Origin: Ndongobacter massiliensis
Lineage (GTDB): Bacteria; Bacillota; Clostridia; Tissierellales; Peptoniphilaceae
Assembly (NCBI RefSeq): GCF_900120375.1
Contig: NZ_LT635480.1
Location: forward strand, 1,556,840-1,620,839
Direction of reading: 5' to 3'
DNA length: 64,000 nt
Shown: piece by piece, positions 1 to 59,958 of the stretch
How the letters are laid out: each line of letters opens with the position of its first letter
Position numbering within the stretch: the stretch's first letter is position 1
Translations under genes and position numbers: made by a program
The notes under the pieces: generated by a model
Databases searched by the model: none
The model's input: only the letters and a program-made list of their open reading frames with translations
What the model was told of the DNA's origin: nothing

Positions 1-847
1 CGGGTAAAAAACCCGCCTGTTCCAACGCCCGACGAATGCGGAGCGCCTGCTCCACCGCTTTTTTCGCATTGGAAAAATAGACACCCGACGCAAACGCCGC
101 TTCATATTGCACACCGAGCAGCCGCCCCTTGGCAAGCATCCCGCCGCAGCGCTTGATGTGGTAGCGGAAATGCGGGAAACGTTCCGGACGATTGAGTACG
201 ATCGCCTCGCCGAAGAGCAGACCCTGTTTGGTTCCGCCGATCGTAAAGGCGTCGCACAGCGAAACCAAGTCGCCCAATGTCATATCCGTCTCTGAGGAAG
301 CGAGTGCATAGCCCAATCGCGCGCCGTCGACGAAAATGCCCACCCCGTACGGTTCACAAATTTCTTTGAGTTCCTGCAGCTGCGCCTTTGTATATAATCC
401 GCCCAGCTCCGTACTCTGCGAAATATAGAGCATGCCGGGCATGACCATATGCTCGTTGCCTCCGTCTTTGAAATGCGCTTCCAAGGCTTTGCGCACAGAC
501 TGCGGACAAACGCGTCCGACGGCATCGCCTTCGACAAGAAGGCATTTATGCCCCATCGCTTCAATGGCGCCGGTTTCATGCACATTGATGTGCCCCGTCG
601 ACGTGCAGAGCACCCCCTGATATGGCGCCAATCCAGCGGTCAGAACGATGACATTCGCCTGCGTACCGCCCACGACGAAATGAATTTCCCCGTGAAAATC
701 GCCCAGTTCCCGGACAATGGCGGCGCGCGCCGCTTCACAGTAGCGATCCTCGCCGTAGCCGGGCGTCTGCACCAGATTCGTATCTGTCAGTGCCTGCAAT
801 ATCGCCGGATCGCAACCTTCGTGGTAATCACAACAGAAGTAGTACAT
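1..847 (-). CDS. ltaE: Low-specificity L-threonine aldolase, C-terminus cut off by window edge
   Basis: PLP-dependent fold-type I enzyme that would cleave L-threonine or L-allo-threonine to glycine and acetaldehyde. Reading the minus strand from the ATG at 847 gives an open frame of about 282 codons that leaves the window at base 1, so the C-terminus is missing. Visible marks are GGTQAN near residues 60-65 (PLP phosphate contact), DGAR near 174-177 and the Schiff-base lysine in GGTKQG (about K207), all in the spacing expected for threonine aldolases. The start lies 8 nt after the upp stop, with a GGGGG ribosome-binding stretch inside the end of upp, so it is probably the last known gene of a ppaC-sua5-upp-ltaE operon. 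A related beta-eliminating PLP enzyme is less likely. Confidence 0.88.
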   Translation of the reverse strand, partial: MYYFCCDYHEGCDPAILQALTDTNLVQTPGYGEDRYCEAARAAIVRELGDFHGEIHFVVGGTQANVIVLTAGLAPYQGVLCTSTGHINVHETGAIEAMGHKCLLVEGDAVGRVCPQSVRKALEAHFKDGGNEHMVMPGMLYISQSTELGGLYTKAQLQELKEICEPYGVGIFVDGARLGYALASSETDMTLGDLVSLCDAFTIGGTKQGLLFGEAIVLNRPERFPHFRYHIKRCGGMLAKGRLLGVQYEAAFASGVYFSNAKKAVEQALRIRRALEQAGFLP

Positions 848-855
848 TGCGCCCC

Positions 856-1485
856 CTACTTGGTTCCGAAGAGCCGATCGCCGGCATCACCCAGACCCGG
901 AACAATGTACGCATCTTCATTCAACTTTTCATCCACAGCCGCGAGGTAAATATCGACATCGGGATGTGCTTCGTTTACCGCTTTGATGCCCTCCGGCGCG
1001 CCAAGAATATTGACCATACGGATGGAACGGCAGCCGCGCTCTTTCAAAAAGTTGATCGCCGCAATTGCGGAACCGCCGGTTGCCAGCATCGGATCGAGCA
1101 CAAAAATTTCCCGCGAAGCGACATCCTTCGGCAATTTGCAGTAATATTCCACCGGCTTCAGCGTCTGCGGATCACGGTATAACCCAATGTGCCCGATCTT
1201 TGCCGTCGGAATAATTTCGACAAACCCGTCGACCATGCCCAGTCCGGCGCGCAAAATCGGTACAATGGCCAACTTTTTCCCGGCAAGGCGGTAACCCGTC
1301 GTCGGCGCAATCGGCGTTTCCACCGCATACGTCTCCAATTCAAGGTTGCGCGTCGCTTCATAGGCTTCCAGCGCTGAAATCTCGACGACCAACTTGCGAA
1401 ATTCATTGGTCCCCGTCGTCTTTTGCCGCAAAATCGACAATTTGTGTTTAATCAGCGGATGATCGAGTACTATCAATTTTCCCAT
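856..1485 (-). CDS. upp: Uracil phosphoribosyltransferase
   Basis: Converts uracil and PRPP to UMP (pyrimidine salvage, cytoplasm). The 209-residue product has the PRPP loop [10 protein letters not shown] at about 131-140 and the conserved uracil-binding tail [13 protein letters not shown]. The ATG at 1485 is chosen over an in-frame start nine codons upstream because AAGGAG sits just before it and the resulting length is normal for the family. The start lies inside the 3' end of the sua5 frame (about 38 bp overlap), so translation is probably coupled. Confidence 0.96.
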
Positions 1486-2599
1486 GGTTTTCTCCTTCCA
1501 GGTTTTGCACATGCCCGCCCGCAGATTTTCGCAGCCGGTTCATAATGGAAATCGCATATTCGCTTGTTTCAGCAATTCCTGCGCCGAAAATGACATCGAC
1601 GCCTGCGCGGTCCATCGCGCGCAGCTTGGTATACATCCCCCGGGCCATGCTGTCAAGGTCGCCCGGTTTCCCCCAAAACTCAACAAAATCCGCATCTTCG
1701 CTTGCCATTCCCTCGAAAAGTAAGACGCCGACGCGTTTTCCCTCCGCCTTGGCTTGTCGCACCGCTTCCTCAAGGCGTTGTTCGACTTGCGCCCCACATA
1801 CATCCGGCGCGCCCACATAGACCGTAAGGGGCGCTTTCGGCGCATAGTGGCGATACTTTTGTCCCGGCGAACGCGGCACCTGATGTGCTCCGACCAGCGC
1901 CGGGTCCATGGCCACCCTTCCGAGCCAAGGCGCGAAATCCGCCGGCGTATAGTAGCCCGGGCGCAAAATAACCGGCGGTCCGGTTACATCCAGCACGGTC
2001 GATTCAATGCCGATCCCGCATGCGCCCCCATCTAAAATGAGCGAAACACGACCGTCCATATCTTCTTTGACATCCGCCGCCTGCGTCGGGCTGGGCCTTC
2101 CGCTGCGGTTTGCGGAAGGGGCGGCAATTGGGCAGCGCGCATAGCGAATCAGCGCCCGCGCCACCGGATGTGACGGCATGCGCAGCGCCACCGTTGGACC
2201 GCCGCCGGTCACGACATCCGGCACCACCAGTCGCTTTTGAAAAATAACGGTCAGCGGCCCCGGCCAAAGGGATGCAAGCATCGCTTCAACGGCTTCCCGC
2301 GGCGGTCCCATCCTAGAAAAATCGACCAGCGGCTGCATCTCTTTCATCGCTTGAATGTGTAGGATCAGTGGATTGTCTGCCGGTCTTCCCTTTGCCGCAA
2401 AAATTTTTGCACAAGCCTCTCCGTTTAACCCATCGGCCCCTAAGCCGTACACCGTTTCCGTGGGGAAGGCAACCAATTCTCCCGCACGCAACCGGCGTGC
2501 CGCTTCCGCCAATGCATCCCTTCCGGCCGCACTTTCGGTCGGCCGTTTCGGATCAATGGGAAGAATGTGCGTTTTTATGCAGGATTCCGCCGCCTTCAT
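1448..2599 (-). CDS. sua5: L-threonylcarbamoyladenylate synthase (Sua5/YwlC type)
   Basis: Makes threonylcarbamoyl-AMP from threonine, bicarbonate and ATP, the first step of t6A modification of ANN-decoding tRNAs. The N-terminal YrdC domain (about 25-215) shows PTETVYGLG, the KGRPADNPL nucleotide-binding stretch (about 70-78) and [13 protein letters not shown]. The C-terminal Sua5 domain follows an [15 protein letters not shown] linker typical of the long form. At 383 residues it is longer than the usual 340-350; the extra tail is the part that runs over the upp start. The ATG overlaps the upstream pyrophosphatase stop by 4 bp, which indicates translational coupling. Confidence 0.93.
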
Positions 2600-4245
2600 G
2601 CTTCCTGCCTCGCCTGGGCAATGGCACCGGTCACAGTGGGTACGACCTGTTTTTTTCGGGAAAGAACACCGGGTGCGGAAAAACCGTTCTGTTCCAGCGT
2701 CTGTCCGAAGCCGCGCGCAATTTCCCGGGCATAATCGCCGACGACAAGCAAACTCGATACTTCGCGGAAAATATCGGTCATGACCAGAATGTACGTATCT
2801 TCCCCTTGCTCTTGCAGCAACTTTTGCATCCGCTCCACCAGTTTCGGCTTCAATCCGTCAAGCGACTCCAAATTCATGGTAAAAGCCTGTGCAATTTTGA
2901 CTTTTACCCCTTCCATTTGGAAGAATTTCACGTCCTCGGAAAGGATATCACTCAATTTTTTCGTGCTCAAGTCCGTACCGGCGCGAAACATCTCCATGGC
3001 ATAATTCTCCGGATCAATGCCCGCTATCGGCGCCAAGCGCTCCAGCGCATGACGATCCGCATCCGTCGCCGTCGGAGAACGAAACAACAACGTGTCCGAA
3101 ATGATGGCGGAACACATCAGGCCCGCCGCTTCGCGTGAGGGGCGCAGCCCCTGTTCAAAAAAGATCTGTGAGATAATCGTTGCCGTACAGCCAACGGGCA
3201 CATTGCGAAAATAAATCGGACTTGTCGTCATAACATTGGCGACGCGATGATGATCGATGATCTCCAAGATTTCCGCATACTCAATATCCGGCACGGACTG
3301 CGAACGCTCGTTGTGATCGACAAGAATCAGTTTCTTTTTTGCCGTGGCAATGAGATGGTAGCGGCTGATTGAGCCGACGACATGCTCATTGGAATCCAAT
3401 ACCGGATAGCTGCGATACCGGTTTTTTGCCATCACATTCTGCACATCATCCAGCGTGTCGTCTAGGTGAAAGATAATCAATTTTTCCGTTGTCATGAGAA
3501 ATGAAACCGGCACGGCCTGCGGAATCAGGCGCGCCGCCATGTACGTCGTATAGCTGGTCGAAAGCACGGTTACGCGGTTTTCTTCCGCTTGTTTTGCAAT
3601 TTTCTCCGACAGTGGCGAATCATTGGTCAATATCAACAAGGATACACCGCGCGCAATCGCATCTTCCTGGGCTTCTTCGCGATTGCCCACCATAACAATG
3701 TCATTTTCCCGGATCGTGTCGTTGTCGATATGGCTCATCGCATAAATATTAAAGGCGCCCGTAAAGGGACGTGGATTTTGCGGTTGCAGCAATACGCGTG
3801 CGGATAAAACTTCCAGCACATTTTCAAGGGGCGCCTGCGAGCGCCCCAAAATGGTATCGTCCCACACATTGGCATATGATTTTGTAATATTGGAAAGAGA
3901 AATGACACCGATCAGCTGATCTTTTTCATTGACAACCGCCAAACTGTTCAGGTGATTTTTTTGAATGAGTTCGCTGGCTTTATAGAGCGAAATATCGGAC
4001 GATACGCCGTAATCCCGGTCGATTTCGATATCACAGATCTTCGGCTTCATCGATTCCATATAAACCGGAGCATCGACTCCGAAATAATCCAGTACAAAGC
4101 GGGTCTCCTGATTGAGTTCCCCGACGCGAATGGGAATGGCTTCCATCTCGCCCGTGCGGTTCTTCAATTCCGCATACGCAAGCGCTGAGCAGATGGAGTC
4201 CGTATCCGGAACCCGATGCCCGGAAATATACACTTTTTCTTTCAT
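2596..4245 (-). CDS. ppaC: Manganese-dependent inorganic pyrophosphatase with regulatory CBS-DRTGG-CBS insert
   Basis: Family II pyrophosphatase hydrolysing PPi to phosphate. The 549-residue length marks the regulated subclass: the catalytic DHH domain starts with GHRVPDTDS near residue 9, is interrupted by CBS, DRTGG and CBS domains (roughly 68-305), then resumes with LVDHNE and EIIDHHR, and ends with a DHHA2 domain carrying SRKKQVVPTV. In this subclass the CBS pair binds adenine nucleotides to tune activity and the DRTGG region favours diadenosine polyphosphates; that is family knowledge. The start has a GGAGAGGAGAGACC leader. It heads the run to sua5, upp and ltaE. Confidence 0.95.
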   Translation of the reverse strand: MKEKVYISGHRVPDTDSICSALAYAELKNRTGEMEAIPIRVGELNQETRFVLDYFGVDAPVYMESMKPKICDIEIDRDYGVSSDISLYKASELIQKNHLNSLAVVNEKDQLIGVISLSNITKSYANVWDDTILGRSQAPLENVLEVLSARVLLQPQNPRPFTGAFNIYAMSHIDNDTIRENDIVMVGNREEAQEDAIARGVSLLILTNDSPLSEKIAKQAEENRVTVLSTSYTTYMAARLIPQAVPVSFLMTTEKLIIFHLDDTLDDVQNVMAKNRYRSYPVLDSNEHVVGSISRYHLIATAKKKLILVDHNERSQSVPDIEYAEILEIIDHHRVANVMTTSPIYFRNVPVGCTATIISQIFFEQGLRPSREAAGLMCSAIISDTLLFRSPTATDADRHALERLAPIAGIDPENYAMEMFRAGTDLSTKKLSDILSEDVKFFQMEGVKVKIAQAFTMNLESLDGLKPKLVERMQKLLQEQGEDTYILVMTDIFREVSSLLVVGDYAREIARGFGQTLEQNGFSAPGVLSRKKQVVPTVTGAIAQARQEA

Positions 4246-4518: not shown

Positions 4519-5181
4519 CTATTGGTTTCTCCTGTGGGCATACTCATTCATAATTTCAACAGCTGACGAAATTCCTAAACGTGATGCACCTGCCTCAACA
4601 AGCTTCATCGCTTGGTCGAGGGTCTTTATTCCCCCAGAAGCTTTCACTAAAGCTTTTCCATTTACGGTCTCTTTCATGAGGCGTATATCTTCTTCGCAGG
4701 CACCTTTGCCTAAAAAACCCGTCGACGTTTTTACATAATCTGCGCCAGCTTCCACCGCCAGTTGACAACCTCTAATAATTTCTTCCTTATTGAGTAAGCA
4801 GTTTTCCAAAATCACCTTGAAGATATGATTTTTTGTAATGTCCCGAACTTGGATAAGTTCTTGCAAAACTTTATCTTCTTGTCCCGACTTTAAAGCTCCA
4901 ATCTGAATCACCATATCAATTTCATCAGCTCCAGCATCAAGCGCACACTTTGCTTCATACGCCTTTACCGATGAAAGCATTGCGCCTAGAGGAAAACCCA
5001 CTGCACAGCAAACTTTGATGCCAGTATTTTTGAGTTCCCTAACTACTTGAGCAACATGTACACTGGTTACTGCACAGGCATAAAAATTATATTTTCTGGC
5101 AAGCATGCAGAAAGCATGAATATCATTTTCTGTTGTTTCTGGTTTTAATAAGGTAAAATCAATGATACTGTTTAACTCCAT
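4519..5181 (-). CDS. deoC: Deoxyribose-phosphate aldolase family protein
   Basis: Class I aldolase, classically 2-deoxyribose-5-phosphate to acetaldehyde plus glyceraldehyde-3-phosphate. The 220-residue protein keeps the Schiff-base lysine in YVKTSTGF (K151), the second lysine in VKASGGI (K180) and the aspartate in DEIDMVI (D89). The N-terminal DHT motif reads DFT. It is the last gene of the minus-strand PTS operon, with a GAGGGA ribosome-binding site. No other deoxyribonucleoside genes (deoA, deoD, deoB, deoK) are nearby, so it may act on a PTS-derived sugar phosphate rather than on nucleoside deoxyribose; that is inference. Confidence 0.9.
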   Translation of the reverse strand: MELNSIIDFTLLKPETTENDIHAFCMLARKYNFYACAVTSVHVAQVVRELKNTGIKVCCAVGFPLGAMLSSVKAYEAKCALDAGADEIDMVIQIGALKSGQEDKVLQELIQVRDITKNHIFKVILENCLLNKEEIIRGCQLAVEAGADYVKTSTGFLGKGACEEDIRLMKETVNGKALVKASGGIKTLDQAMKLVEAGASRLGISSAVEIMNEYAHRRNQ

Positions 5182-5211
5182 ATTTCCCTCATTTCTGCTA
5201 AATTAATGCAA

Positions 5212-6318
5212 TTACATTGAATAAAGAGCCTCTTGAGTACATAAATCATGCAACTGATACTGTTTTCTTAATTTTGATAACACAGAGGTTATTCCTTCTC
5301 TTTGTGTATTACTTACTTCCATTTCCGCAATGAACTTCTTAATCTCTGCCCAGGTTGCCTCCTCTTTGTCAAGAGCATAGTAAAGAGCGGATGCAATAAG
5401 TACAACATAGGGCCACACTTCTCCACCCATTTGATCGACAATTTTCATTGGAAAAAGCAGTCTTTCATTCTGTCCCAATTTCCTCAAAGCCTGTTGCGCA
5501 TTTCGTGCAATTGGATCTTTTATTTCTGGATTCGAAAATTTTCTATAGGCTGAATTCCAAAAATCTATTTGATTTTCAAAAGATACTTGGAAATATTTAG
5601 ACATAACTAAATTATGAGGCTTTTCAAGTTCTTTTAGAAAATTAATAATCTCTTCATCCAACGATGCCTCATCCAGAAACTGATATTTTTTATAACTACC
5701 GAGGTAAGAAATAACTGCGCTCATAAAATTATAAGTGTAGATTTTCCTTTTGATGAGCGTATCAAAGTTTTCTATCAACGGCATTCCATCTATAACGAAT
5801 TTATGGCTAATTTTTTCTCCATCCACTGGTAGCATTAGGCCATGCTCACTTGTAATATCCAATGCCTCTTTATTTACAGAAGTACAGAAGATGACTCCCG
5901 CACTAATGTCTGCATCGATGTTATACTCCTTTAACATATCTGGCGCATTAATGCTATTTTCTACTGTAATGACAAGTAATTTGTTTCGACAAGCATTTCT
6001 TTGAGCTATAGCTTTGACAAGCAACGGTCCTAATTCTGGGAGATTCTGAACAAACACACTAGTTGTGACGATGTCAGCTTCTGCAATTGCCGTTACTGCC
6101 TTTGGATCTTGTACAGAAAAAGCTAAGTATCGATCGATGACCACATCGTAATTATTTTTTTTACCAAAATAACTCACTGTGTATTTGCTTTTCTTGTTAA
6201 GCATTTGGATTAAATCACAATTCTTGTCGAGAAATGTGATTTCAAAATCATTTTTGTAAAATATTGGAGCTACAAAACCTCGGCCAGTTTGTCCCGCTCC
6301 TATAATTACCACTTTCAT
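5212..6318 (-). CDS. Mannitol dehydrogenase-family NAD-dependent polyol (phosphate) dehydrogenase
   Basis: Long-chain polyol dehydrogenase fold. An N-terminal Rossmann domain opens with VVIIGAGQTGRG. The C-terminal domain carries the family's catalytic K...N pattern in KRKIYTYNFMSAVISYLG (about 190-207) and the DPIARNAQQALRKLG stretch that matches the DP-R---PLRKL region of mannitol-1-phosphate dehydrogenases. The length of 368 residues fits MtlD-like enzymes better than the roughly 490-residue mannitol 2-dehydrogenases. The ATG at 6318 is used because AAGGGG ends 6 nt before it; the ATG two codons earlier abuts that site. The substrate is unknown; its place between deoC and a SorD-like SDR suggests a sugar or polyol phosphate delivered by the adjacent PTS. 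Confidence 0.85.
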   Translation of the reverse strand: MKVVIIGAGQTGRGFVAPIFYKNDFEITFLDKNCDLIQMLNKKSKYTVSYFGKKNNYDVVIDRYLAFSVQDPKAVTAIAEADIVTTSVFVQNLPELGPLLVKAIAQRNACRNKLLVITVENSINAPDMLKEYNIDADISAGVIFCTSVNKEALDITSEHGLMLPVDGEKISHKFVIDGMPLIENFDTLIKRKIYTYNFMSAVISYLGSYKKYQFLDEASLDEEIINFLKELEKPHNLVMSKYFQVSFENQIDFWNSAYRKFSNPEIKDPIARNAQQALRKLGQNERLLFPMKIVDQMGGEVWPYVVLIASALYYALDKEEATWAEIKKFIAEMEVSNTQREGITSVLSKLRKQYQLHDLCTQEALYSM

Positions 6319-6349
6319 ATACATCCCCTTATGCTTTTATTTCGCTATA

Positions 6350-7183
6350 TCAAACTCTAGTTTTCCCACCAGCAACGGGTATAATTGTTCCCGTTATATA
6401 GCTGGAGTGACTAGACACGAGATAGCAAACTAAATTAGATACTTCACTGAGCTTTCCTGGTCTCCCTAACGGAATGCTAGATTTATAGCCTTTAAAAAAA
6501 ACTTTTGCTAGTTCAGCAGGGTCCCCCGAAATATCCATCCCTCTTCCGTATGCCTGAGCTCTGTATTTTTCATCGTTATTCGCTGGTGTGCGCTCTAGAA
6601 TATCTGGAGCAATGCTATTGACGCGGATATTAAAGGGCGCCAATTCCTTCGCCCAAGACAATGTAAAAGCATTAATGGCCGCTTTTGTCGCTGCATAAAC
6701 GCTATGTCCCTTGGATCCATTCAAGCCGGCAGCCGAAGACATATTAATAATATTACCGTGATTTTGCTGTAAAAATCGACGTGTTGCTTCTTGACTTACA
6801 AATAACGTGCCTTTAATGTTAATATCGCTCATGAAGTAATAGTCTTGTTCATTTATTTCATACTTCTTCTCCTGTTTGTAATAATCTACTAAAATACGAG
6901 GGCGAGTAACGCCCGCATTGTTCACCAAAGCATCAATTTGATCCATCGAAGCATCAATTACTTTAAAAGCATCAGCAATTTCATCAATACTGGTTAAATC
7001 CGTCTTTTTATATAAAGCTCCTCGATCCAATAATTTTTGTGATGGACTCTGTCGATCAAGGATAAAAACTTTAGCTCCACAATTCACTAAATCTACGACA
7101 ATCTGTTCCCCAATCCCACTGGACCCTCCTGTCACAACAACTTTTTTATTGTATAAATCAATCCAAGCTTGGTTATTATCCAC
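6350..7183 (-). CDS. SDR-family dehydrogenase resembling sorbitol-6-phosphate 2-dehydrogenase
   Basis: Classical short-chain dehydrogenase: TGGSSGIG (about 18-25), NNAG (88-91), catalytic serine about 25 residues later and YAATK (Y163, K167). The C-terminal third, with SIPLGRPGKLSEV and the end AGGKTR, strongly recalls SorD/GutF-type sorbitol-6-phosphate dehydrogenases, as I remember them. A GTG start at 7183 is preferred: GAGGTG lies just before it, overlapping the EIID stop, whereas the longer reading needs a TTG with no ribosome-binding site. It would interconvert a hexitol phosphate and fructose-6-phosphate if the resemblance holds. Confidence 0.87.
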   Translation of the reverse strand: MDNNQAWIDLYNKKVVVTGGSSGIGEQIVVDLVNCGAKVFILDRQSPSQKLLDRGALYKKTDLTSIDEIADAFKVIDASMDQIDALVNNAGVTRPRILVDYYKQEKKYEINEQDYYFMSDINIKGTLFVSQEATRRFLQQNHGNIINMSSAAGLNGSKGHSVYAATKAAINAFTLSWAKELAPFNIRVNSIAPDILERTPANNDEKYRAQAYGRGMDISGDPAELAKVFFKGYKSSIPLGRPGKLSEVSNLVCYLVSSHSSYITGTIIPVAGGKTRV

Positions 7184-7196
7184 TCTTCTCACCTCT

Positions 7197-8060
7197 CTAT
7201 ACAAGTCCAAAGAAAGACAGCACCAAAGATAAAGCTAAAATTAACATCAAAAGTGATACGTATTTCTGCCCTATCTTTTTAAAGAAAAATACTATTCCTA
7301 TTATTATTGCTAATGGAAAAAGATTTGGAAAAATTTTGTCAATAAACTGCTGGAGTTCCACTGTTTCTCCTACGGCGTTCGTCCAGGAAATGGCGGTTTG
7401 AAATTTAACATATTGTGCCGATAGTCCGCCCATCATAAATAGCCCTAATATCCCAGCTCCATTAATAAAGGTGTTAATTTTTCCTGCGCCCAATACGTGA
7501 TCTACGGAATTTTTTCCAGAATTGTATCCTAATTGTAGGAGCGAGTAGCCTAAAAATGAAGTTCCTACCCCCCAAATAACAATAGGCGCAACACCAGCAA
7601 TCCATAATCCACTGCTAGCCAAGGGAATAAAGGCAGATAACAGTAGAGGTCTTATCATGGCATGATTAATAGTATCCCCAATACCCGCAAGTGGACCCAT
7701 CAACCCCAATTTAAAATTTGTAACGACATCTGCCAAGTCCTTCTTCTCAGTTTCCTCAAAAGAACCACTGGCAATTTTAAGTGCCCGCTCTTCTTCCAAT
7801 GCTAAAGTTATTCCAATAATTAGAGATCCCCAAATAGCCTCGGAATTATAGAACATAAGATGACGTTCAAGCGCAGTCCTATATTCCTCCTCATCATGTC
7901 CGTAAAGCTTTTCCAAAGCTTCAGAAACTCCATAAGAAAATGCCAAAGCCGTTAAACGTTCATACCCCGAGGACACTTCCGCACAAAGAATATACTTGGC
8001 CCACGCTTTTGTAACATCCTTGCTAGTCAATTCTTGAACTTTTGCTAACTGATTAACCAT
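7197..8060 (-). CDS. PTS mannose-family transporter subunit IID
   Basis: Membrane partner of IIC in mannose/fructose/sorbose-type phosphotransferase permeases. The 287-residue protein starts with the typical soluble segment (SGYERLTALAFSYG, RHLMFYNSEAIWGSLIIG), then GLMGPLAGIGDTINHAMIRPLL, which is diagnostic of IID, and ends in hydrophobic segments. Its ATG overlaps the IIC stop in a TAATG arrangement. Confidence 0.95.
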   Translation of the reverse strand: MVNQLAKVQELTSKDVTKAWAKYILCAEVSSGYERLTALAFSYGVSEALEKLYGHDEEEYRTALERHLMFYNSEAIWGSLIIGITLALEEERALKIASGSFEETEKKDLADVVTNFKLGLMGPLAGIGDTINHAMIRPLLLSAFIPLASSGLWIAGVAPIVIWGVGTSFLGYSLLQLGYNSGKNSVDHVLGAGKINTFINGAGILGLFMMGGLSAQYVKFQTAISWTNAVGETVELQQFIDKIFPNLFPLAIIIGIVFFFKKIGQKYVSLLMLILALSLVLSFFGLV

Positions 8061-8842
8061 TAGAAATCCCCCTCTTCCGCTACATTGTTACCGTTTTCTG
8101 CAATCTTGCTCTCTTTAGTAACAAACTGAGAATGAATCAAAGCCAAGCACGCTCCAAATACAGAAAGACCTATCATATTGATGCCTGCATAAGACGCTAA
8201 TGCAAACCCAATAATAAAATATGGAATGTTCTTTTTTGTTCCAATAGTCATAATTGTGATAGCAAAACCTAAAGCAGGAAGAATACCACCTGCTACAGAG
8301 AGCCCATGAATAGCCCAAGCCGGCAAAGATTCAAGAAAGGACTGTATAGCATCTCCTCCAAAATAAAGTCCTAGGGTGACAGGAATTATGCGCAGAGGCA
8401 ACGAAAGCAAAAAAGGATATAGAAATTCATTTTTTTCCATTTTCTTTCTATTCTTTTTCTCAGCCTCCATATCCGCCCGTCTTACAAAGTAACTATGATA
8501 AGTTCTCTTCAAATTATCCAATAGAACGCCAAGCATACCTAATGGCATAGCGATAGAAACGGCAATTTCTGGCGCCAACTTATATTGCAATGCAAGAGGA
8601 ATCGCAATAGCCGCTGCCAAAGCTTCATCGGATGGCAGTTGCCCTCCTGGCGCAATGGCTCCCAAATAGATCAACTGTAAGGCAGCACCGATCTTCATAG
8701 AATTCGATAAATCACCCATAATAATTCCTATGGGAACAGCAAGAACTAAAGGTTGTCGCGCCAGATGCTGAGTACCATACCAAAACTTATTTGTGCCACA
8801 CCAATAAAGAACCCCCATAACTAAACTTAGACCAAAACTCAT
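8060..8842 (-). CDS. PTS mannose-family transporter subunit IIC
   Basis: Polytopic membrane subunit that carries the sugar. The 260-residue protein has the IIC signature region around IGAALQLIYLGAIAPGGQLP and repeated hydrophobic segments, ending in a charged cytoplasmic tail. A strong AAGGAGG precedes the ATG. It lies between IIB (39-nt gap) and IID. Confidence 0.95.
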   Translation of the reverse strand: MSFGLSLVMGVLYWCGTNKFWYGTQHLARQPLVLAVPIGIIMGDLSNSMKIGAALQLIYLGAIAPGGQLPSDEALAAAIAIPLALQYKLAPEIAVSIAMPLGMLGVLLDNLKRTYHSYFVRRADMEAEKKNRKKMEKNEFLYPFLLSLPLRIIPVTLGLYFGGDAIQSFLESLPAWAIHGLSVAGGILPALGFAITIMTIGTKKNIPYFIIGFALASYAGINMIGLSVFGACLALIHSQFVTKESKIAENGNNVAEEGDF

Positions 8843-8881
8843 TTTTTCCTCCTTAAGAAGACTCTTTTCGTCTTGACAACA

Positions 8882-9373
8882 TCACTTGCCAAATATTTTT
8901 TCAACATCTTCAAAATTTAGTTTCGTATCTTTTGGAGTCACTTGAAAGCTAATTTCAACTCCTTTCGAATGTAAGAGCTTCAATTTAGACATTTCATTTT
9001 CAGACAAAAAAATCTCATTTGAAATTTTTCGTTTTGTATTGTCACTTCCCAGCCCACCAATCTGAATAAACTGTAATTCCATGCCTTGATTTATAGCTGA
9101 ATACGCATCTTCTACTGTCTTAAACAGAATTATGAGTTTCCTATTTTTAAATTTTCCAAGATTGAAATCCTGAATCGCCTTATCGATCGTTCTTAATGCC
9201 ACTTGGATACCTGGCGGCGCCGCCATTCGAAAAACATTAGCTAAGATAGGGTCATTCATCAATTGGTCATTTACAATAAGTATAGAATCTGCATTGACTT
9301 GCTGAATCCAATTTGTAACAATTTGACCATGAAGTAATCTAAAATCCACTCGTGCTAAACAAATGTTATTCAT
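8882..9373 (-). CDS. PTS mannose-family component IIB
   Basis: Cytoplasmic phosphocarrier passing phosphate from IIA to the incoming sugar. The 163-residue protein has the phosphorylation site His15 in ARVDFRLLHGQIV and the NDQLMNDPILANVFRMAAPPG segment of the family. The start overlaps the IIA stop by 8 bp, with GAGGAG inside the IIA end. Confidence 0.95.
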   Translation of the reverse strand: MNNICLARVDFRLLHGQIVTNWIQQVNADSILIVNDQLMNDPILANVFRMAAPPGIQVALRTIDKAIQDFNLGKFKNRKLIILFKTVEDAYSAINQGMELQFIQIGGLGSDNTKRKISNEIFLSENEMSKLKLLHSKGVEISFQVTPKDTKLNFEDVEKIFGK

Positions 9374-9764
9374 TTTTCTCCTCTCTTACTAATTGACATC
9401 GTTGAATGCTAGCTTTTGCATCACAAATTGATTTGTCGATGGTCTTCTCCAAACTATCTCCATCCCGACCCAAGATAAGCGAAACGAGCATGGCTAAATT
9501 CAATCCTGTCATCACCTCCACATCATATTTCCCTGAACAGTACATAGCTACGTTATTCGGCGTTCCTCCAAACAGATCGGTAACAATTAAAATTGATCCC
9601 GTTAATGAGTTGATTAACTCATCGGTCTCACTAAGTAGCTCCTCCATGGATTTTCCAGGTTTTAAGCTGAGCGAAAATACATCATTTACACTACCTAAAA
9701 TCATTTCACAGCTTTGAATAAGTTCTTTACCTACCTCACCATGCGTAATAAGTATTATTTTCAT
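9366..9764 (-). CDS. PTS mannose-family component IIA
   Basis: First sugar-specific phosphocarrier, receiving phosphate from HPr. The phosphorylated histidine is His8 in MKIILITHG, and DLFGGTPNN is the conserved loop. A start at 9764 (132 residues) is chosen over one eight codons upstream because AAGGGG sits about 8 nt before it and the N-terminus then matches the family. First gene of the minus-strand operon IIA-IIB-IIC-IID-SDR-mtlD-like-deoC. Confidence 0.94.
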   Translation of the reverse strand: MKIILITHGEVGKELIQSCEMILGSVNDVFSLSLKPGKSMEELLSETDELINSLTGSILIVTDLFGGTPNNVAMYCSGKYDVEVMTGLNLAMLVSLILGRDGDSLEKTIDKSICDAKASIQRCQLVREEKNE

Positions 9765-9883
9765 AATGCCATCCCCTTGTAACAACAATCCTAATTAAAT
9801 CCAAAATGTTTATTTCTTTCATTTGTATAATTTCTCTAAAGCTTTCTCCTTTCTTCTTTTTTTGCAAACATTTTCTTATTCAA

Positions 9884-9912
9884 ACTATAACCACTTGTTC
9901 TTTTTAATGCAA
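9884..9912 (-). promoter_or_regulatory. Promoter of the PTS/aldolase operon
   Basis: Minus strand: TTGCAT (9907-9912), 17-nt spacer, TATAGT (9884-9889), 120 nt before the IIA start. It lies in the divergent region shared with the DeoR gene. Confidence 0.6.
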
Positions 9913-9915
9913 GAT

Positions 9916-9946
9916 TTGATCATATATTAATCAAAATGAACTTTTG
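9916..9946. promoter_or_regulatory. Two abutting palindromes, candidate DeoR-family operator
   Basis: TTGAT-N9-ATCAA (9916-9934) and CAAAA-N5-TTTTG (9932-9946) overlap by three bases. They lie immediately upstream of the PTS-operon -35 box and over the likely -35 of the regulator gene (TTGTTT at 9944 and TAATAT at 9966, 16-nt spacer). The position suits an operator for both divergent promoters. Confidence 0.45.
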
Positions 9947-10003
9947 TTTGCTTATTTCTATTTGTTAATATACAATTCTGACAAATGAATGGAGACGAAC
10001 GCT

Positions 10004-10771
10004 ATGAATAAAAACAATCGACAAAACCGTATATATAATTTATTAACAAAATATGAAACTATGACCGTTGAAGACTTGTCTGAAATACTAAAAGTCTCGG
10101 CGGCAACAATTCGTAGAGACTTAACAAGTTTAGAGGAAAAAAAGTTGGTTTTGAGGACGTACGGAAAAGCTCACTTCGTTGAAAATCGAGCAAGGCACTC
10201 AACTCGAGACCTATCTACTTCAGAAAAACAAAAAATTTCTGAAGAAGCTCTACACTTTATAAAAGATGGAGCATCTATTATTATCGATGCAGGAACTACT
10301 ACATTTGAGCTTGCTAAAGCTTTACTCAAAAAGCAACGGACATTTCAAAACATTAATGTTGTCACAAATGAACTTTCAACTGCCAACATCCTTTCCGATA
10401 CATTTCGCGTTACTATGCCTGGCGGCTTAATTTTTTCGGAAGAATCTATTAAATATCAAGTGGGCAACACTACGTGCCGATTTTTTGATGAAATCAATGC
10501 AGATATTTTGTTTCTTGGTTCGACAGGAATAAAGAACACCTCAGGACTAACAGTCTCGAATCCTTTACTCGTTGAAGTAAAAAAGAAAATGGTTGAGGCA
10601 GCTAATTTAGTCATTGCACTTGTTGATTCTCAAAAGTTTTTAAATAACGGTTTATTTCAAGTTATTGATTATAGCTTTGTCGATATATTAATCACTATTC
10701 AAAGCCCCGAAAATTTAGAGCAACTCGAAAGGCTGAAAAAATTTGAGCATCTTCAAGTGCTTACTATTTAA
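10004..10771 (+). CDS. DeoR-family transcriptional regulator
   Basis: Sugar-operon regulator, 255 residues. The N-terminal winged helix-turn-helix (MTVEDLSEILKVSAATIRRDL) is the DeoR recognition motif. The C-terminal sensor domain has DAGTTTFELAKAL, the sugar-phosphate-binding loop of the ISOCOT-like fold. The start at 10004 is set by GGAG at 9991-9994 with 9-nt spacing; the in-frame ATG five codons earlier overlaps that site. It is transcribed divergently from the PTS operon, the usual arrangement for a local repressor relieved by a phosphorylated intermediate. Confidence 0.92.
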   Translation: MNKNNRQNRIYNLLTKYETMTVEDLSEILKVSAATIRRDLTSLEEKKLVLRTYGKAHFVENRARHSTRDLSTSEKQKISEEALHFIKDGASIIIDAGTTTFELAKALLKKQRTFQNINVVTNELSTANILSDTFRVTMPGGLIFSEESIKYQVGNTTCRFFDEINADILFLGSTGIKNTSGLTVSNPLLVEVKKKMVEAANLVIALVDSQKFLNNGLFQVIDYSFVDILITIQSPENLEQLERLKKFEHLQVLTI

Positions 10772-10886
10772 TAACTCAAATTAAGTTTTTCCGCATGATC
10801 GCTTTCGATTTTTCACATAATTGGAACCCTTTTCTTACAAAATTATTGTTTTTGATAAAAGCCTTATAATATTTCTTAATTCTCTT

Positions 10887-11570
10887 TTATCCCTTGAGCT
10901 CACAAATGCTTTCCGTGCCTCCGGCAAAATCGACCCAGTCATCCGCAAAATCACTGATTGCTTTTTCGATAGATGGATTAAGGAATGTTTCCTTCATAAC
11001 ATCTTCGGATAGGGTGACTTGGTGAGCGCCGGCTTTCAATGCATCGCTCACTTGATAAGTATTTTTAAAAGATGCTCCTAAAATTTGGGATTCATATCCA
11101 TCTCGATCAATGATGTAGCGAAGATCGGTTATTACATCAATCGACGAAATACCTAAATTCTCCATTCGATTAAAATAGGGTGCTATAGTATCTGCTCCTA
11201 ATTCTAATGCCATATATGCTTGAAATTTCGTATATACCGCTGTAGCAGTAATGCGAATGCCTTCTTTTTTCAATGTTTTTATGGCCTTCATCCCTTCTTC
11301 AAAAACAGGGACCTTAACATAGATATCTTTCCCTAATTTATTCACTAAACAATGTGCTTCTTGGATTATCTGGTCCGACTCTTTAGCAGTTGTTTGCACG
11401 TGGAGATCGCGACCAGCTAAAATACGTTGAATTTTTATAAGCTGCGGGAAGAAATCAATGCCTTGATTCTTTTTGAGAATACTTGGATTTGTAGTTACCC
11501 CTGCAATGGGATAGAATTCGTTAAAAAATGCAACTGCTTCTAAATTAGCGCAATCAAGCAAGAACTTCAT
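10887..11570 (-). CDS. Transaldolase-like fructose-6-phosphate aldolase
   Basis: Small transaldolase-fold protein (227 residues), in the TalC/FSA size class. It shows AGVTTNPSILKK (about 23-34), the Schiff-base lysine in DIYVKVPV (K86), ITATAVYTKFQAYMALELGADTIAPYFNR and ILGASFKNTYQV. A tyrosine (APYFNR) stands where FSA enzymes have their catalytic Tyr, which favours aldolase over transaldolase chemistry (fructose-6-phosphate to dihydroxyacetone plus glyceraldehyde-3-phosphate). The second ATG (11570) has the better spacing to GGGAGG. It converges on the DeoR gene and has its own promoter. Confidence 0.88.
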   Translation of the reverse strand: MKFLLDCANLEAVAFFNEFYPIAGVTTNPSILKKNQGIDFFPQLIKIQRILAGRDLHVQTTAKESDQIIQEAHCLVNKLGKDIYVKVPVFEEGMKAIKTLKKEGIRITATAVYTKFQAYMALELGADTIAPYFNRMENLGISSIDVITDLRYIIDRDGYESQILGASFKNTYQVSDALKAGAHQVTLSEDVMKETFLNPSIEKAISDFADDWVDFAGGTESICELKG

Positions 11571-11596
11571 CATGACCTCCCTATTAAATATAGTTA

Positions 11597-12157: not shown

Positions 12158-13531
12158 TCACGATCGTTTGCAGACCGCCTTACCGTCCCTACGATCCCAT
12201 CCTTTTGTATAATGGATATAGTCTTTCAACCGAAAAATACAGTAGAGTGGAATGCTCCAATTCTGCGTTTTTCCTACCTGATTATCTCCGACATTCTTTA
12301 ATGACAGCTTAAATGACATCTCCGGTTCATACCGTTCACAAAAGATGCGCAAGCTTTTTGCCTTGGTATTATCTGCCGACTTCACTTCAATGGGAATCAA
12401 AAGTCCTTCATAATCGGTAATAAAATCAACCTCAGCATCTGCTTTGGTTCGCCAAAAACAACAATTCATACCCATTGCAATCAACTGCGTCATGACATAA
12501 TTTTCCGTCAAAGCGCCTTTGAAATGACTGAAATGCCTTTCTCCACTCCATATCGTGCGGTAATTCAGATTTGATTTGCGCCGAAGTAACCCCACATCGG
12601 ACATATATACTTTGAAGTAGGTGGCATCCACCATCCCCGAAAGCGGTACCTGGGGATTGTTCACGCAGTACAACCGATACGCAAGCCCGGAATTTACCAG
12701 CCATTGTAAGGAATCTTCCAAATCTTTGGCGCGCAAACTTTTTTTTACATGGGAAAAAATAAATTTATTGTTCTCCCTGGCAATCTGTGTCGGAATCGAA
12801 TCCCATATTAAATGAATGCGGTTCGCTTCTGTGTTTGTCGTGTGTTTGCTAAAATCATCCGGATAGTCTTTTAATATGTTGTCCTGAACGTATTCTACTT
12901 CTTCATAGTTATGCGTGTCCACCCACGTTTGAACTACCTCCGGCATTCCTCCGACGATATAATAATTCTTCAAATATTTTTCCATGGGGACCGTATAGAG
13001 TTCCGGAATTTCCCTTTCAAATGCGATTCTGCGCAATCCTTCTATATATTTCTCGCCGCCATCTGCGATTACAAATTCCTCAAAATTCATCGGAAACATT
13101 GCCAGACGCTCAACCTTGCCGACCGGAAAAGAGACGCCTTCCTGCTTGAGCGCCACGCCCAACAGAGATCCTGCGGCAATAATATGAAGATCCGCTTTGT
13201 TTTCACAAAAATATTTCAAAGAAGAAATCGCTCGGGGACATGCCTGAATTTCATCAAATATCAGCAGAGTTTTTCCGGGCGTGATCTTTTTCCCAAAATG
13301 GATAATTTCGAGCTCATGCAAAATTCGATCGATATCCAAATCGTATGCAAATACGGATTGCAAACCCGTATTTCCGTCGAAATTAAAATACAGAGATTCT
13401 TCAAATTCATTTTTTGCAAACTTTTTGATGATATAGGTTTTTCCGCATTGTCGTACACCTGTGATCATCAACGGTTTTCGGTTTTTCTTATCTTTCCATT
13501 GAATTAATTGATCCATGATTTCCCGTTTCAT
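12158..13531 (-). CDS. AAA ATPase with C-terminal DUF4143 domain
   Basis: 457-residue protein of the AAA_14/DUF4143 class, common as strain-variable genes in anaerobes and of unknown role. Walker A is GVRQCGKT (25-32), Walker B IFDEIQ (91-96), with a sensor-like AAGSLLGVAL following. The C-terminal domain ends with a PD-(D/E)XK-like pattern, EVDFI...IPIEVKS, which suggests a nuclease-related fold; whether it cuts is not known. The ATG follows a GGGGGTG stretch, and the upstream DNA holds three operator-like tandem repeats. Composition is AT-richer than the housekeeping genes, suggesting transfer. Confidence 0.9.
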   Translation of the reverse strand: MKREIMDQLIQWKDKKNRKPLMITGVRQCGKTYIIKKFAKNEFEESLYFNFDGNTGLQSVFAYDLDIDRILHELEIIHFGKKITPGKTLLIFDEIQACPRAISSLKYFCENKADLHIIAAGSLLGVALKQEGVSFPVGKVERLAMFPMNFEEFVIADGGEKYIEGLRRIAFEREIPELYTVPMEKYLKNYYIVGGMPEVVQTWVDTHNYEEVEYVQDNILKDYPDDFSKHTTNTEANRIHLIWDSIPTQIARENNKFIFSHVKKSLRAKDLEDSLQWLVNSGLAYRLYCVNNPQVPLSGMVDATYFKVYMSDVGLLRRKSNLNYRTIWSGERHFSHFKGALTENYVMTQLIAMGMNCCFWRTKADAEVDFITDYEGLLIPIEVKSADNTKAKSLRIFCERYEPEMSFKLSLKNVGDNQVGKTQNWSIPLYCIFRLKDYIHYTKGWDRRDGKAVCKRS

Positions 13532-13552
13532 AAAACACCCCCACGAAAAATA

Positions 13553-13642
13553 TACATTTTTTGGACCGAATAATCAATGGATTATACATTTTTTCGACCG
13601 AATAAATGTATAACTCTACATTTTTTCGACCGAATAAATGTA
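13553..13642. repeat. Three tandem 32-bp-period palindromic repeats upstream of the DUF4143 ATPase
   Basis: Units begin at 13553, 13585 and 13617, exactly 32 bp apart. Units 2 and 3 share 26 identical bases forming a near-palindrome (TACATTT ... AAATGTA around TTCGACCGAA); unit 1 keeps the first 21 with a G for C change and loses the right arm. They end about 20 nt before the ATPase start. A period of about three helical turns would put bound proteins on one DNA face. Confidence 0.8.
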
Positions 13643-13688
13643 TTCCGCCGGAAAATGTCCTTCCGTCCTTGGCAAAAACGCTCTTAAA

Positions 13689-13961
13689 TTATTTCTTACA
13701 ACTCTGCCCGATCATCATGCCGACTGCCATCCCGATCATTGAGCCAATAGCTACAATGTCACTGCCGAAAATGACACCGATACCCGTTCCCAGACACATG
13801 CCGATGCACATGCCTTCGATTCTATAGTCTTCTGCCCGATCCTCTTCTTTTTTCTCTTTTTCTTTTTTCACGGTCCATATTAAGAGGACCACGCCGACTC
13901 CGACCATAAACACCGGGAGCAAGATGGATCCAATTTTTCCTATGATTTGTGCAATTGTCAT
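13689..13961 (-). CDS. Small membrane protein with glycine-zipper segments
   Basis: Unrecognised 90-residue protein. A first hydrophobic segment (about 6-30) is followed by a charged stretch KKEKEKKEEDRAED, then a second hydrophobic half dense in G-x3-G spacing (GMCIGMCLGTGIGVIFG, GSMIGMAVGMMIG). AAGGA precedes the ATG at good spacing. It lies 15 nt after the DUF2254 gene and is probably co-transcribed with it. Function unknown. Confidence 0.7.
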   Translation of the reverse strand: MTIAQIIGKIGSILLPVFMVGVGVVLLIWTVKKEKEKKEEDRAEDYRIEGMCIGMCLGTGIGVIFGSDIVAIGSMIGMAVGMMIGQSCKK

Positions 13962-13976
13962 TATTTCCTTCTTTAT

Positions 13977-15269
13977 TTAAAGATTGCTATGTTCTTCGAT
14001 CTTCTTTTTAATCCGTTTAAACTTGTTGATGTGGATTTCATGGCTGAAATTGGTCAACAAAAGATCGTATGCAGAATCAAAATACTTTTTAATGCCAGCT
14101 TTGGCGCTCCTGCCGGCCATCATATAAATCATATAGATTCCCTGTAAAATGGCTTGGGTGACTAGCGGATCGCCACCGGAGTAGGAGATAATCTGACTGA
14201 AAACAAGATATAATTCATCTTCGACGGAATAACTTCGGTAGATTATTTTTGCTTCTCTATCTTGTTCCAGAACGATGAACGGATGGCCCGTCGACAGGAG
14301 CTTTCCCAATAATGAAGAAATTTTCTCGATACATACAATGGCGGTATTCGGATCATTGATTCCGGGACTCAGAGCCATGTTTGCAATCTCGGTAAGGTTG
14401 ATAAGCCCTCGGTGGTAGTCATCTTCGTTATTGTTATAGATGTTAATTACAAGCAGTTGACCGATTTTTTCTTTTAACTCTTCCTTTTGTTCGACACTGC
14501 ATTTTTCATCCCCAAAGATTTTCAAATCCCCTACGGTCTCCCCTTCCGTAATATACTCACCGATTCTTTTTTGGATGGTCAACTCTGCTTTGATCCCATC
14601 GAGTTCTTTGAGGATGTCTTCCGATTTAACTTCAAAGAAATAGCCCGTTCTTGCCGCTACAATCAGCATTTCCTTCGCCGGCTTATCTTCTTGATAACGT
14701 TCTGCCTTTTTTCTAAGCTCTACCTCATTGTCGATAAGTTTTTCGCAGTCATTGTATACCCCCTCAATAATGTTGGACATTTTAAGGTTTCCAAGTACCT
14801 GTTTCGAAAAAACAATGAAGCCGATCATCGTAATAATCGAGTAAGCAATTCCGAAGCTTCCCGCCACTACCTTTTGGTCTGAATGAAGATCTTGAAGAAG
14901 TAAAATGCTGATTACGGAGTAAAAAAAGCCACTGACAAATATACCATATAAGCCCAAAACACCGGTCCTGTCTATAAATCTTTGAAGCATCCTGGGTGAT
15001 ATGCTGCTGCTATATTTGTTGAGTACGGTGACAATGGTGGTAAAACAAAAAATGCTGATCGTCAAAAAGACACCCGAAATATTTGAAAGAAAGTTGACGG
15101 AAACTTCTACGGACAACAAGAGTTGCTTTGGAATATAATTCTTTAAATCGGGATATTGATGATCAATAAGCCAAGTGATTAAAAGAAGCACTCCCGTCAA
15201 GAGGATAAACTTCGACATCTTTAACAGATTTTTTTGATTGATAAACCACAGCTTGATTTTCGATAACAT
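13977..15269 (-). CDS. DUF2254 family membrane protein
   Basis: 430-residue predicted inner-membrane protein. Four hydrophobic segments lie in the first 175 residues (near 23-40, 60-85, 105-125, 140-160), followed by a long cytoplasmic part that contains the family signature HRGLINLTEIANMALSPGINDPNTA. Function is unknown for the family. The ribosome-binding site is weak (AGAAGAGA). It is read away from the flavoprotein gene, with a 283-nt gap between them. Confidence 0.85.
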   Translation of the reverse strand: MLSKIKLWFINQKNLLKMSKFILLTGVLLLITWLIDHQYPDLKNYIPKQLLLSVEVSVNFLSNISGVFLTISIFCFTTIVTVLNKYSSSISPRMLQRFIDRTGVLGLYGIFVSGFFYSVISILLLQDLHSDQKVVAGSFGIAYSIITMIGFIVFSKQVLGNLKMSNIIEGVYNDCEKLIDNEVELRKKAERYQEDKPAKEMLIVAARTGYFFEVKSEDILKELDGIKAELTIQKRIGEYITEGETVGDLKIFGDEKCSVEQKEELKEKIGQLLVINIYNNNEDDYHRGLINLTEIANMALSPGINDPNTAIVCIEKISSLLGKLLSTGHPFIVLEQDREAKIIYRSYSVEDELYLVFSQIISYSGGDPLVTQAILQGIYMIYMMAGRSAKAGIKKYFDSAYDLLLTNFSHEIHINKFKRIKKKIEEHSNL

Positions 15270-22351: not shown

Positions 22352-22576
22352 GGGCGGATGTCTGCCCATGGTTTGCTTTTTGTTTGATCGCGCAAACCCG
22401 ACAAGAAATTTATAAAGGAGAGACAGTATGGAAAGCCAAAGTCAAACGGAATACCGAAGTTGCCCGCAAATGCCGACTGTCTCACCGAAGACTTCTTTCT
22501 TATATAAGTAGTTTGGTATAAGCAGCATTTGTTTTGCACTCCCTTTTTCGTTTGCGGCTCCATTCGGAGGTGCAAC
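22352..22576 (+). promoter_or_regulatory. Structured leader of mgtE
   Basis: Begins with a hairpin (GGGCGGA/TCTGCCC, about 22352-22369) followed by a T-rich stretch, then a small ORF. A possible long-range pairing joins CAAATGC (within the small ORF, about 22469) and GCATTTG (about 22525). The conserved M-box magnesium riboswitch core is not visible. A magnesium-responsive leader is suspected from position only. Confidence 0.35.
22428..22511 (+). CDS. Possible 27-residue leader peptide before mgtE
   Basis: ATG at 22428 with an excellent AAAGGAGAG ribosome-binding site 6-9 nt upstream; 27 codons ending in TAG at 22511, 65 nt before mgtE. The peptide is polar, with three prolines and four of its first six residues Ser, Gln or Glu. 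In enterobacteria, Pro-rich leader ORFs control Mg2+ transporter genes (mgtL); here the resemblance is of arrangement only. Confidence 0.45.
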   Translation: MESQSQTEYRSCPQMPTVSPKTSFLYK

Positions 22577-23947: not shown

Positions 23948-23972
23948 CCCGCGCAACCGGAAAGGAGCCCTC

Positions 23973-38278: not shown

Positions 38279-38323
38279 TCTCTCCTCCTTATTCTCGCCG
38301 CATTTCTGCAGCAAAAACGGCCG

Positions 38324-49415: not shown

Positions 49416-49432
49416 GCTTTCCTCCGCTCCTA

Positions 49433-51343: not shown

Positions 51344-51354
51344 GGTATTCCTTT

Positions 51355-52476: not shown

Positions 52477-52506
52477 AAAGGATCCCTTTCCCGGACTCTG
52501 CCCCGC

Positions 52507-52728
52507 CTATGCCTCACCCTTGGAAGAAATGCATGCCGCCGCGTCACCAAAAGAAAAACAATCGCCATCGTACAGTTTTTTTCCACGCTGCATACAAACG
52601 GTACCGTTAACCGCAACCGCACCTTCCTGCACCAACGCCTTTGCCTCGGCGCCCGAAGCGACGAAAGATGCCAATTTCATCGCCTGATCCAACCGGATAT
52701 ATGGCGTGTGGATGACCAAATTTTCCAT
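52507..52728 (-). CDS. yaaA: S4-domain protein YaaA/RlbA
   Basis: 73-residue S4 RNA-binding protein (IRLDQAMKLASFVASGAEAKALVQEGAVAVNG), always found between dnaN and recF in Firmicutes. Its start overlaps the dnaN stop by one base. Confidence 0.92.
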   Translation of the reverse strand: MENLVIHTPYIRLDQAMKLASFVASGAEAKALVQEGAVAVNGTVCMQRGKKLYDGDCFSFGDAAACISSKGEA

Positions 52729-55770: not shown

Positions 55771-55822
55771 TAAGGAGAAATTCGACTCCACTTTCCAATC
55801 GAGCGCATAACAGCGAGATTGC

Positions 55823-55851
55823 TTGACAGTCCCAAGGGATTTCAATACAAT
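55823..55851 (+). promoter_or_regulatory. rpmH promoter
   Basis: TTGACA (55823-55828), 17 nt, TACAAT (55846-55851). Near-consensus. Confidence 0.9.
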
Positions 55852-59944: not shown

Positions 59945-59958
59945 GAAGGGCACGGGAG

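Follow-up and report, generated by a model that had tools for sequence, protein, structure and literature searches.

A mannose-family phosphotransferase island with two adjoining dehydrogenases and two class I aldolases in Ndongobacter massiliensis

Gene content and base composition of the island

The analyzed stretch of the Ndongobacter massiliensis genome (64,000 nucleotides of contig NZ_LT635480.1, hereafter the window; the genome is a single contig of 1.86 Mb) contains an AT-rich island of nine genes at positions 4519-11573. These genes encode a mannose-family phosphotransferase system (PTS), a short-chain dehydrogenase/reductase (SDR) similar to SorD and GutF, a second dehydrogenase related to MtlD, two class I aldolases, namely one of the DeoC type and one of the fructose-6-phosphate aldolase (FSA) type, and a DeoR-family regulator. 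The initial annotation listed the same gene content, and scans with Pfam and NCBIfam confirmed all nine genes at these coordinates and bore out their assignments at the family level:

4519-5181, minus strand: DeoC-type class I aldolase, last gene of the PTS operon (TIGR00126, 243.3 bits, cut-off 117.3)
5212-6324, minus strand: MtlD-family dehydrogenase of the MtlD2 clade (Pfam Mannitol_dh and Mannitol_dh_C)
6350-7183, minus strand: SDR, SorD/GutF-like, divergent (NF004817, 300.6 bits, cut-off 304; scored from the TTG at 7210)
7197-8060, minus strand: EIID component of the mannose-family PTS (PF03613, 241.5 bits)
8060-8842, minus strand: EIIC component of the mannose-family PTS (PF03609, 241.4 bits)
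8882-9373, minus strand: EIIB component of the mannose-family PTS (PF03830, 154.6 bits)
9366-9764, minus strand: EIIA component of the mannose-family PTS (PF03610, 68.2 bits; scored from 9788)
9989-10771, plus strand: DeoR-family regulator (PF00455, 127.2 bits; PF08220, 58.6 bits)
10887-11573, minus strand: FSA-type class I aldolase (NF009299, 264.1 bits, cut-off 214)

On the minus strand, from 9788 to 4519, the PTS operon runs in the order EIIA, EIIB, EIIC, EIID, SDR, MtlD-like dehydrogenase, and DeoC. The SDR open reading frame extends over 6350-7210 (minus strand), with a preferable GTG start at 7183 that is preceded by AGAGAGG; in the EIIA reading frame (9366-9788, minus strand), the ATG at 9764 is the likelier start. 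The DeoR-type regulator scores below all NCBIfam cut-offs given for this protein, and its gene is transcribed divergently from the PTS operon. The FSA gene lies beyond the regulator in convergent orientation, and is thus outside the PTS operon and on its own transcript. A promoter scan found 22 candidates against 26.0 expected from shuffled sequences and was not used.

The GC content of the island is 0.372, compared with 0.545 at 1-4200 and 0.516 at 16001-64000, in agreement with the earlier description of this DNA as AT-richer than both flanks; however, the AT-rich stretch exceeds the island, since the right neighbor (12158-15269) also has a low GC content of 0.403, with GC content at third codon positions (GC3) of 0.45 and 0.47 in two measured genes. 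Across all nine island genes GC3 is 0.29-0.36 (0.33 in the FSA gene), against 0.58 and 0.62 in two measured left-hand genes and 0.62 in gyrA. This deviating and uniformly low GC3 is evidence for reading the nine genes as one island, which was probably acquired as a block. A search for flanking repeats as island ends gave weak pairs only; no tRNA genes were detected in the window, and no RNA family reached its gathering score there.

The MtlD2 clade and its genomic neighborhoods

The MtlD-like protein scores below every MtlD equivalog cut-off in NCBIfam (best 152.2 against 404 bits) and belongs to the Mannitol_dh fold family by its fold and its catalytic Asn-Lys-Asn. A tree of 42 proteins resolves three groups: ordinary MtlD (24 proteins) and two groups that we named MtlD1 (8 proteins, support 93/89) and MtlD2 (10 proteins, 100/100). 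The window protein is a member of MtlD2, where it pairs with a protein of Dielma fastidiosa (98/86) whose branch is long, a kind of row that the tool flags. A profile built from six relatives was run on 391 genomes of the class, and gave at least 337 bits for the MtlD2 group, 218-248 bits for the tandem neighbors, and at most 196 bits for other MtlDs. The MtlD2 group occurs among these 391 genomes in the N. massiliensis genome (two copies) and in five others; N. massiliensis itself and the L019 contig contributed to the profile, and as this contig is one of the five, four are independent.

The active site was mapped by hand on a pairwise alignment with the MtlD of Staphylococcus aureus, a mannitol-1-phosphate dehydrogenase (M1PDH) for which PMC6623548 gives the residue roles, including the indispensable R287 and R294 and the lesser R283. 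The window protein retains the catalytic triad (N123, K194, and N199, equivalent to N119, K200, and N205 of S. aureus) and the phosphate arginines R281 and R288 (equivalent to R287 and R294), with R283 replaced by Q277, His208 by S202, and Val204 by Y198. Both Ser at the His208 site and Tyr at the Val204 site are constant in the MtlD2 clade (10/10 each). According to the multiple alignment, the Ile152 column is also Thr in 10/10 proteins and an Arg conserved in ordinary MtlD gives way to Cys (9) or Thr (1), these two positions being less sure, since the pairwise alignment to S. aureus MtlD sets that stretch differently. The AlphaFold model of the window protein (mean predicted local distance difference test score, pLDDT, 88.7, from an 8-row alignment) has the MtlD structure 3h2z as its best VIA-align match (Z 37.9, root-mean-square deviation 2.8 over 348 residues), and Foldseek places the MtlD structures 5jnm and 3h2z at the top ranks. 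As the triad and the key arginines are retained, the pocket is changed, and the fold matches, the window enzyme probably oxidizes or reduces a phosphorylated polyol, and is unlikely to be an M1PDH. Judged by the aligned residues, the pocket of the whole clade is remodeled relative to that of M1PDH.

In 8 out of 10 clade loci, the MtlD2 gene follows an MtlD1 gene; in the window, the place of MtlD1 directly upstream of MtlD2 is taken by the SDR gene. Seven of the ten loci (L018, L019, L020, and L047-L050) have an FGGY kinase gene beside the MtlD1-MtlD2 pair. They resemble the island in that the MtlD2 enzyme adjoins a partner dehydrogenase; however, the partner there is an MtlD relative, whereas it is an SDR in the window, and they carry the kinase (7/7) and a Zn-dehydrogenase (6/7), whereas the window has a PTS. 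This row of FGGY kinase, MtlD1, and MtlD2 apparently belongs to an uncharacterized sugar or polyol pathway of Clostridia. Four of the seven loci also contain a metallo-hydrolase gene, the product of which, in the one locus scanned, is weakly similar to ascorbate-6-phosphate lactonase (37 bits, cut-off 306). The remaining three loci are PTS-linked, namely the window, a second locus of the same genome, and that of D. fastidiosa (where the PTS was named by eye). A class I aldolase gene is found near MtlD2 in all three, and no DeoC, FSA, or 2-keto-3-deoxy-6-phosphogluconate (KDPG)-type match was found in the examined stretches of the seven kinase-linked loci. The second own locus (L005, C1:446000-464000; genes at about 448-458 kb, GC content 0.388) also encodes a mannose-family PTS, together with a D-2-hydroxyacid dehydrogenase, a KDPG-type aldolase, a tandem MtlD1-MtlD2 pair, an FSA-type aldolase, and a presumably LevR-like regulator; its MtlD2 is the best match of the window MtlD2 elsewhere in the genome (35%).

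These neighborhoods bear on an alternative explanation, by which a broad PTS would import two hexitols and the MtlD-like enzyme and the SDR would each oxidize a different hexitol phosphate to fructose-6-phosphate. The MtlD and sorbitol-6-phosphate dehydrogenase families both yield fructose-6-phosphate from hexitol phosphates, and FSA is found at sorbitol operons. However, the MtlD2 pocket is unlike that of M1PDH at four places that are constant or nearly constant in the clade, the SDR has lost a motif of its relatives (see below), and in 7 out of 10 MtlD2 loci the FGGY kinase gene stands in place of a hexitol PTS; we therefore consider two separate hexitol substrates unlikely.

The SDR and the PTS in comparison with known systems

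The score of the SDR is narrowly below the cut-off of NF004817, the sorbitol-6-phosphate dehydrogenase model. The protein is 40-46% identical to 12 SorD/GutF-type proteins, which are 53-89% alike among themselves and come from gut, sor, and further loci (of 16 available loci, 12 entered the alignment); its nearest named relatives include SorD of the Citrobacter freundii sorbose operon (44.5%) and GutF-type proteins. A motif derived in this analysis, S-E-[SAC]-G-L-E-G-S-[EQ]-G-Q-S, is present in 12/12 relatives and reads S-A-A-G-L-N-G-S-K-G-H-S in the window SDR, which also differs from them by an insertion in a later loop. The residues that we take to be the catalytic Ser, Tyr, and Lys are present, and an Asp that follows the second strand presumably indicates the use of nicotinamide adenine dinucleotide (NAD).

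The PTS has the histidine motifs RLLHGQ in EIIB and ITHG in EIIA. EIIC and EIID are 42 and 41% identical to the D-glucosaminate (dga) PTS of Lacticaseibacillus paracasei, and 24 and 29% identical to their C. freundii sorbose counterparts, whereas two sor systems share 67 and 66% with each other; EIIB is 31% identical to its counterparts in both the dga and the sorbose PTS. By these identities the window PTS is no close relative of the sorbose type. The branch does not name a substrate either, since the genes next to related EIIC proteins vary across five loci from four other genomes.

The sor operon for L-sorbose utilization (for example, C. freundii NZ_CP151862.1) shares with the island a mannose-family PTS, a SorD-like SDR, and a second dehydrogenase, as well as the redox-neutral two-step logic proposed for the island (the SorE step is described in PMC12817954). 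It differs in its SorC-type regulator, in SorE, which stands in place of MtlD2, in EIIB, EIIC, and EIID that are only 24-31% identical to those of the window, and in that neither DeoC nor FSA is listed for it. The initial annotation had proposed a sorbose-like scheme for the island, in which the MtlD-like enzyme would reduce L-sorbose-1-phosphate to sorbitol-6-phosphate, the SDR would convert the latter to fructose-6-phosphate, and FSA or DeoC would split the product. Its support comes from the mannose-family PTS and from the position of C. freundii SorD and GutF-type proteins among the near relatives of the SDR. As a member of the sorbose operon type, however, the island was rejected: EIIC and EIID are far closer to the dga than to the sorbose PTS, the SDR lacks the motif kept in all 12 relatives, and Pfam reveals no Zn-dehydrogenase of the SorE type among the nine proteins. 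Moreover, the genome contains two phosphofructokinase genes and has no match to a Dak1-type kinase (3 of 14 control genomes do). Thus, the redox logic of two dehydrogenases remains plausible, given the partner gene in 8 out of 10 MtlD2 loci, whereas the substrate is probably not L-sorbose, and we regard the sorbose scheme as a whole as very unlikely.

The closest named EIIC and EIID come from the dga operon of L. paracasei (p1CACC566), which has a sigma-54 regulator, the ammonia-lyase DgaE, and a 2-keto-3-deoxygluconate-6-phosphate (KDGP) aldolase of its own and for which no polyol dehydrogenase is listed. This likeness, together with the KDPG-type aldolase and 2-hydroxyacid dehydrogenase found both at the second own MtlD2 locus and at the locus of one EIIC relative (L102), and with the lactonase-like metallo-hydrolase of the kinase-linked loci, would fit a sugar acid or an amino-sugar derivative similar to D-glucosaminate as the substrate, the dehydrogenases then acting to epimerize a keto-acid phosphate. 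Since no KDPG/KDGP aldolase, ammonia-lyase, or dehydratase was detected by Pfam among the nine proteins, and the varied cargo of the EIIC relatives means that the PTS branch leaves the substrate unfixed, a substrate of this kind also seems improbable.

The combination of SDR and FSA beside a PTS is known from sorbitol (gut) operons, such as those of the Ligilactobacillus salivarius plasmids pMP118 (NC_007930.1) and pMP1046A; the operon of L. salivarius is in print (a table in PMC4165912). Their PTS is of the glucitol family and is accompanied by GutM, no MtlD or DeoC is listed alongside, and the L. salivarius SDR, 43-44% identical to that of the window, has the motif that the latter lost. Plasmids from L. 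salivarius, E. faecium, and Aerococcus carry SDR, FSA, and glucitol PTS genes together. In Streptococcus pneumoniae (PMC3302838), the FSA gene has a lactose-type PTS and a glycerol dehydrogenase as neighbors, and DeoC is part of a nucleoside operon; both contexts differ from the island set.

The occurrence of the set elsewhere was assessed in samples of genomes, which do not imply absence from others; the phylum draws for the MtlD-like, SDR, and EIIC (E 1e-45) queries apparently comprise the same 398 genomes. With the MtlD-like query, matches at 1e-30 came from 7 of 397 other genomes, with identities of 28-33% throughout; among 60 other near relatives searched at 1e-10, 3 matched (27-30%). A pattern scan of genome contigs gave 4 loci. 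Matches to the SDR were obtained in 12 of 397 other genomes, where 7 loci have gut PTS genes, 4 a SorE-like gene (one of them also a sor PTS), and 1 neither; a tblastn recheck placed FSA near the SDR in 2 of these 12 loci and found no MtlD2 or DeoC match in any. EIIC was found in its own genome only among the 398 at 1e-45; at 1e-38, it was found there and in 4 of 336 genomes, at the five loci mentioned above, none of which has MtlD2, SDR, DeoC, or FSA. The full set was likewise absent from the MtlD2-bearing genomes of the class profile, and thus from every other genome sampled. The earlier statement that no characterized pathway with this exact set is known stands within the searches made, with the qualification that the SDR-FSA pair was already known. 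We recognized no paper on the gene combination or on the MtlD1-MtlD2 pair, which is weak evidence, most subscription papers lying outside the searched literature. Reassortment of dehydrogenases and aldolases is common among PTS catabolic operons. The set newly combines known enzyme families, among them a poorly known dehydrogenase branch, and is not a new kind of system.

Aldolases and the proposed pathway

Both aldolases of the island are extras, because the genome encodes a second DeoC (285.4 bits) elsewhere and also has a transaldolase-type protein (208 bits) outside the island. The island DeoC retains VKTSTGF and VKASGG, which we take to be the catalytic (Schiff-base) lysine motifs, and differs at 11 of the 68 columns that do not vary among six other DeoCs; H9F, C37A, N39T, T127N, and G159K are among these changes. 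This count is unexceptional, as two of the six differ from the remaining five at 9/77 and 10/78 columns; the argument for a changed specificity comes from what some of the replacements are and where they lie, those such as H9F, C37A, N39T, and T127N being presumably near the pocket and some probably at the pocket itself. As an extra copy with such replacements, DeoC may act on a deoxy-sugar phosphate, as the initial annotation suggested.

The FSA scores above NF009299 and below two other FSA models (176.8 against 245.95 bits and 173.8 against 306 bits). It has Q (in HVQ) and Y (in APY), which we take to be FSA-type residues, where the transaldolase of the same genome has E and F, and it is 43-47% identical to the FSAs at four sorbitol-type loci and 38% to that at a fifth; its identity to each of the other two copies in the genome is 31%. 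The suggestion that FSA splits the product without phosphofructokinase is weakened: given the two phosphofructokinase genes, the lack of a Dak1 match in the genome, the location of FSA outside the operon, and the finding (PMC7767278) that wild-type FsaA provides no phosphofructokinase bypass in Escherichia coli in vivo, FSA is unlikely to replace this enzyme. The genome also has two genes for iron-type alcohol dehydrogenases, which might reduce dihydroxyacetone.

We propose that the island is a probably acquired PTS catabolic island in which two dehydrogenases act in sequence and an aldolase follows, and we give this explanation as a whole a probability of about 0.5. The mannose-family PTS would import and phosphorylate a hexose- or hexitol-like compound, and MtlD2 and the SDR, both NAD-dependent, would then act one after the other on its phosphorylated linear form, converting a ketose phosphate via a polyol phosphate to another ketose phosphate, or the reverse, in an overall redox-neutral manner. 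A class I aldolase would then cleave the product, yielding a triose phosphate along with a small carbonyl compound; DeoC, as the aldolase of the operon, may serve this step, with FSA, expressed separately, assisting it or taking its place, and the DeoR-family regulator would control the operon. A two-step interconversion fits because the two dehydrogenases adjoin and the MtlD2 clade mostly has a dehydrogenase partner. The analysis establishes which genes are present and in what order, their families, the clade of the MtlD-like enzyme, the catalytic residues that it keeps, and the unusual base composition; we infer the use of NAD, the order of the steps, the regulation, the co-regulation of FSA, and the choice of the flux-carrying aldolase.

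Several points weigh against this proposal. The MtlD2 gene of D. fastidiosa has no recognized dehydrogenase partner, and the second own MtlD2 locus carries a different set, with its 2-hydroxyacid dehydrogenase and KDPG-type aldolase. Q277 in place of the third phosphate Arg may weaken phosphate binding. The usual substrate of DeoC is 2-deoxyribose-5-phosphate, which is not a product of ketose or polyol steps, so that either a step is missing or DeoC has changed its specificity. No operator motif common to the PTS/regulator and FSA promoter regions rose above shuffled sequences, and FSA has no visible operator in common with the PTS operon. Finally, each of the two dehydrogenases could instead have a hexitol of its own to handle.

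Elsewhere in the window, three copies of a 27-base repeat (two identical, one 74%) stand in tandem with a 32-base spacing at 13553-13643, directly upstream of an ATPase-like gene (12158-13531, minus strand). Two lipoprotein-like genes (15553-17532 and 36464-38314) have similar N-terminal parts, the former resembling a flavoprotein reductase, and two tandem genes at 22529-25340 encode proteins of about 460 amino acids, also with similar N-terminal parts; these likenesses were noted by eye. Genes similar to gyrA, gyrB, recF, dnaN, and dnaA (named by eye) lie at 46986-62599, with a shift in GC skew near 55 kb, and this is the probable replication origin region.

The MtlD2 clade and its habit of occurring with a partner are the most interesting part of the finding. 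As a more tentative extension of our proposal, which we think possible but doubtful, MtlD2 may be an unrecognized subfamily of polyol-phosphate dehydrogenases that forms with its partner (MtlD1, or the SDR in the window) a two-enzyme epimerase or isomerase module, which could be swapped between pathways fed by a kinase and those fed by a PTS; the window version would feed a DeoC of changed specificity, with an uncharacterized hexose phosphate, perhaps a deoxy one, being split by retro-aldol cleavage. For the two MtlD2 proteins scanned on NCBIfam (those of the window and of L048), the top models are named mannitol-1-phosphate 5-dehydrogenase, with scores far below the cut-off; the pocket of the clade is nevertheless different, and a partner enzyme is usual, so that recognition of the clade would set annotations right and draw attention to sugar pathways of Clostridia that are still uncharted. 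The island itself offers a clean test case, because assays can identify the substrates of its two dehydrogenases and its two aldolases.

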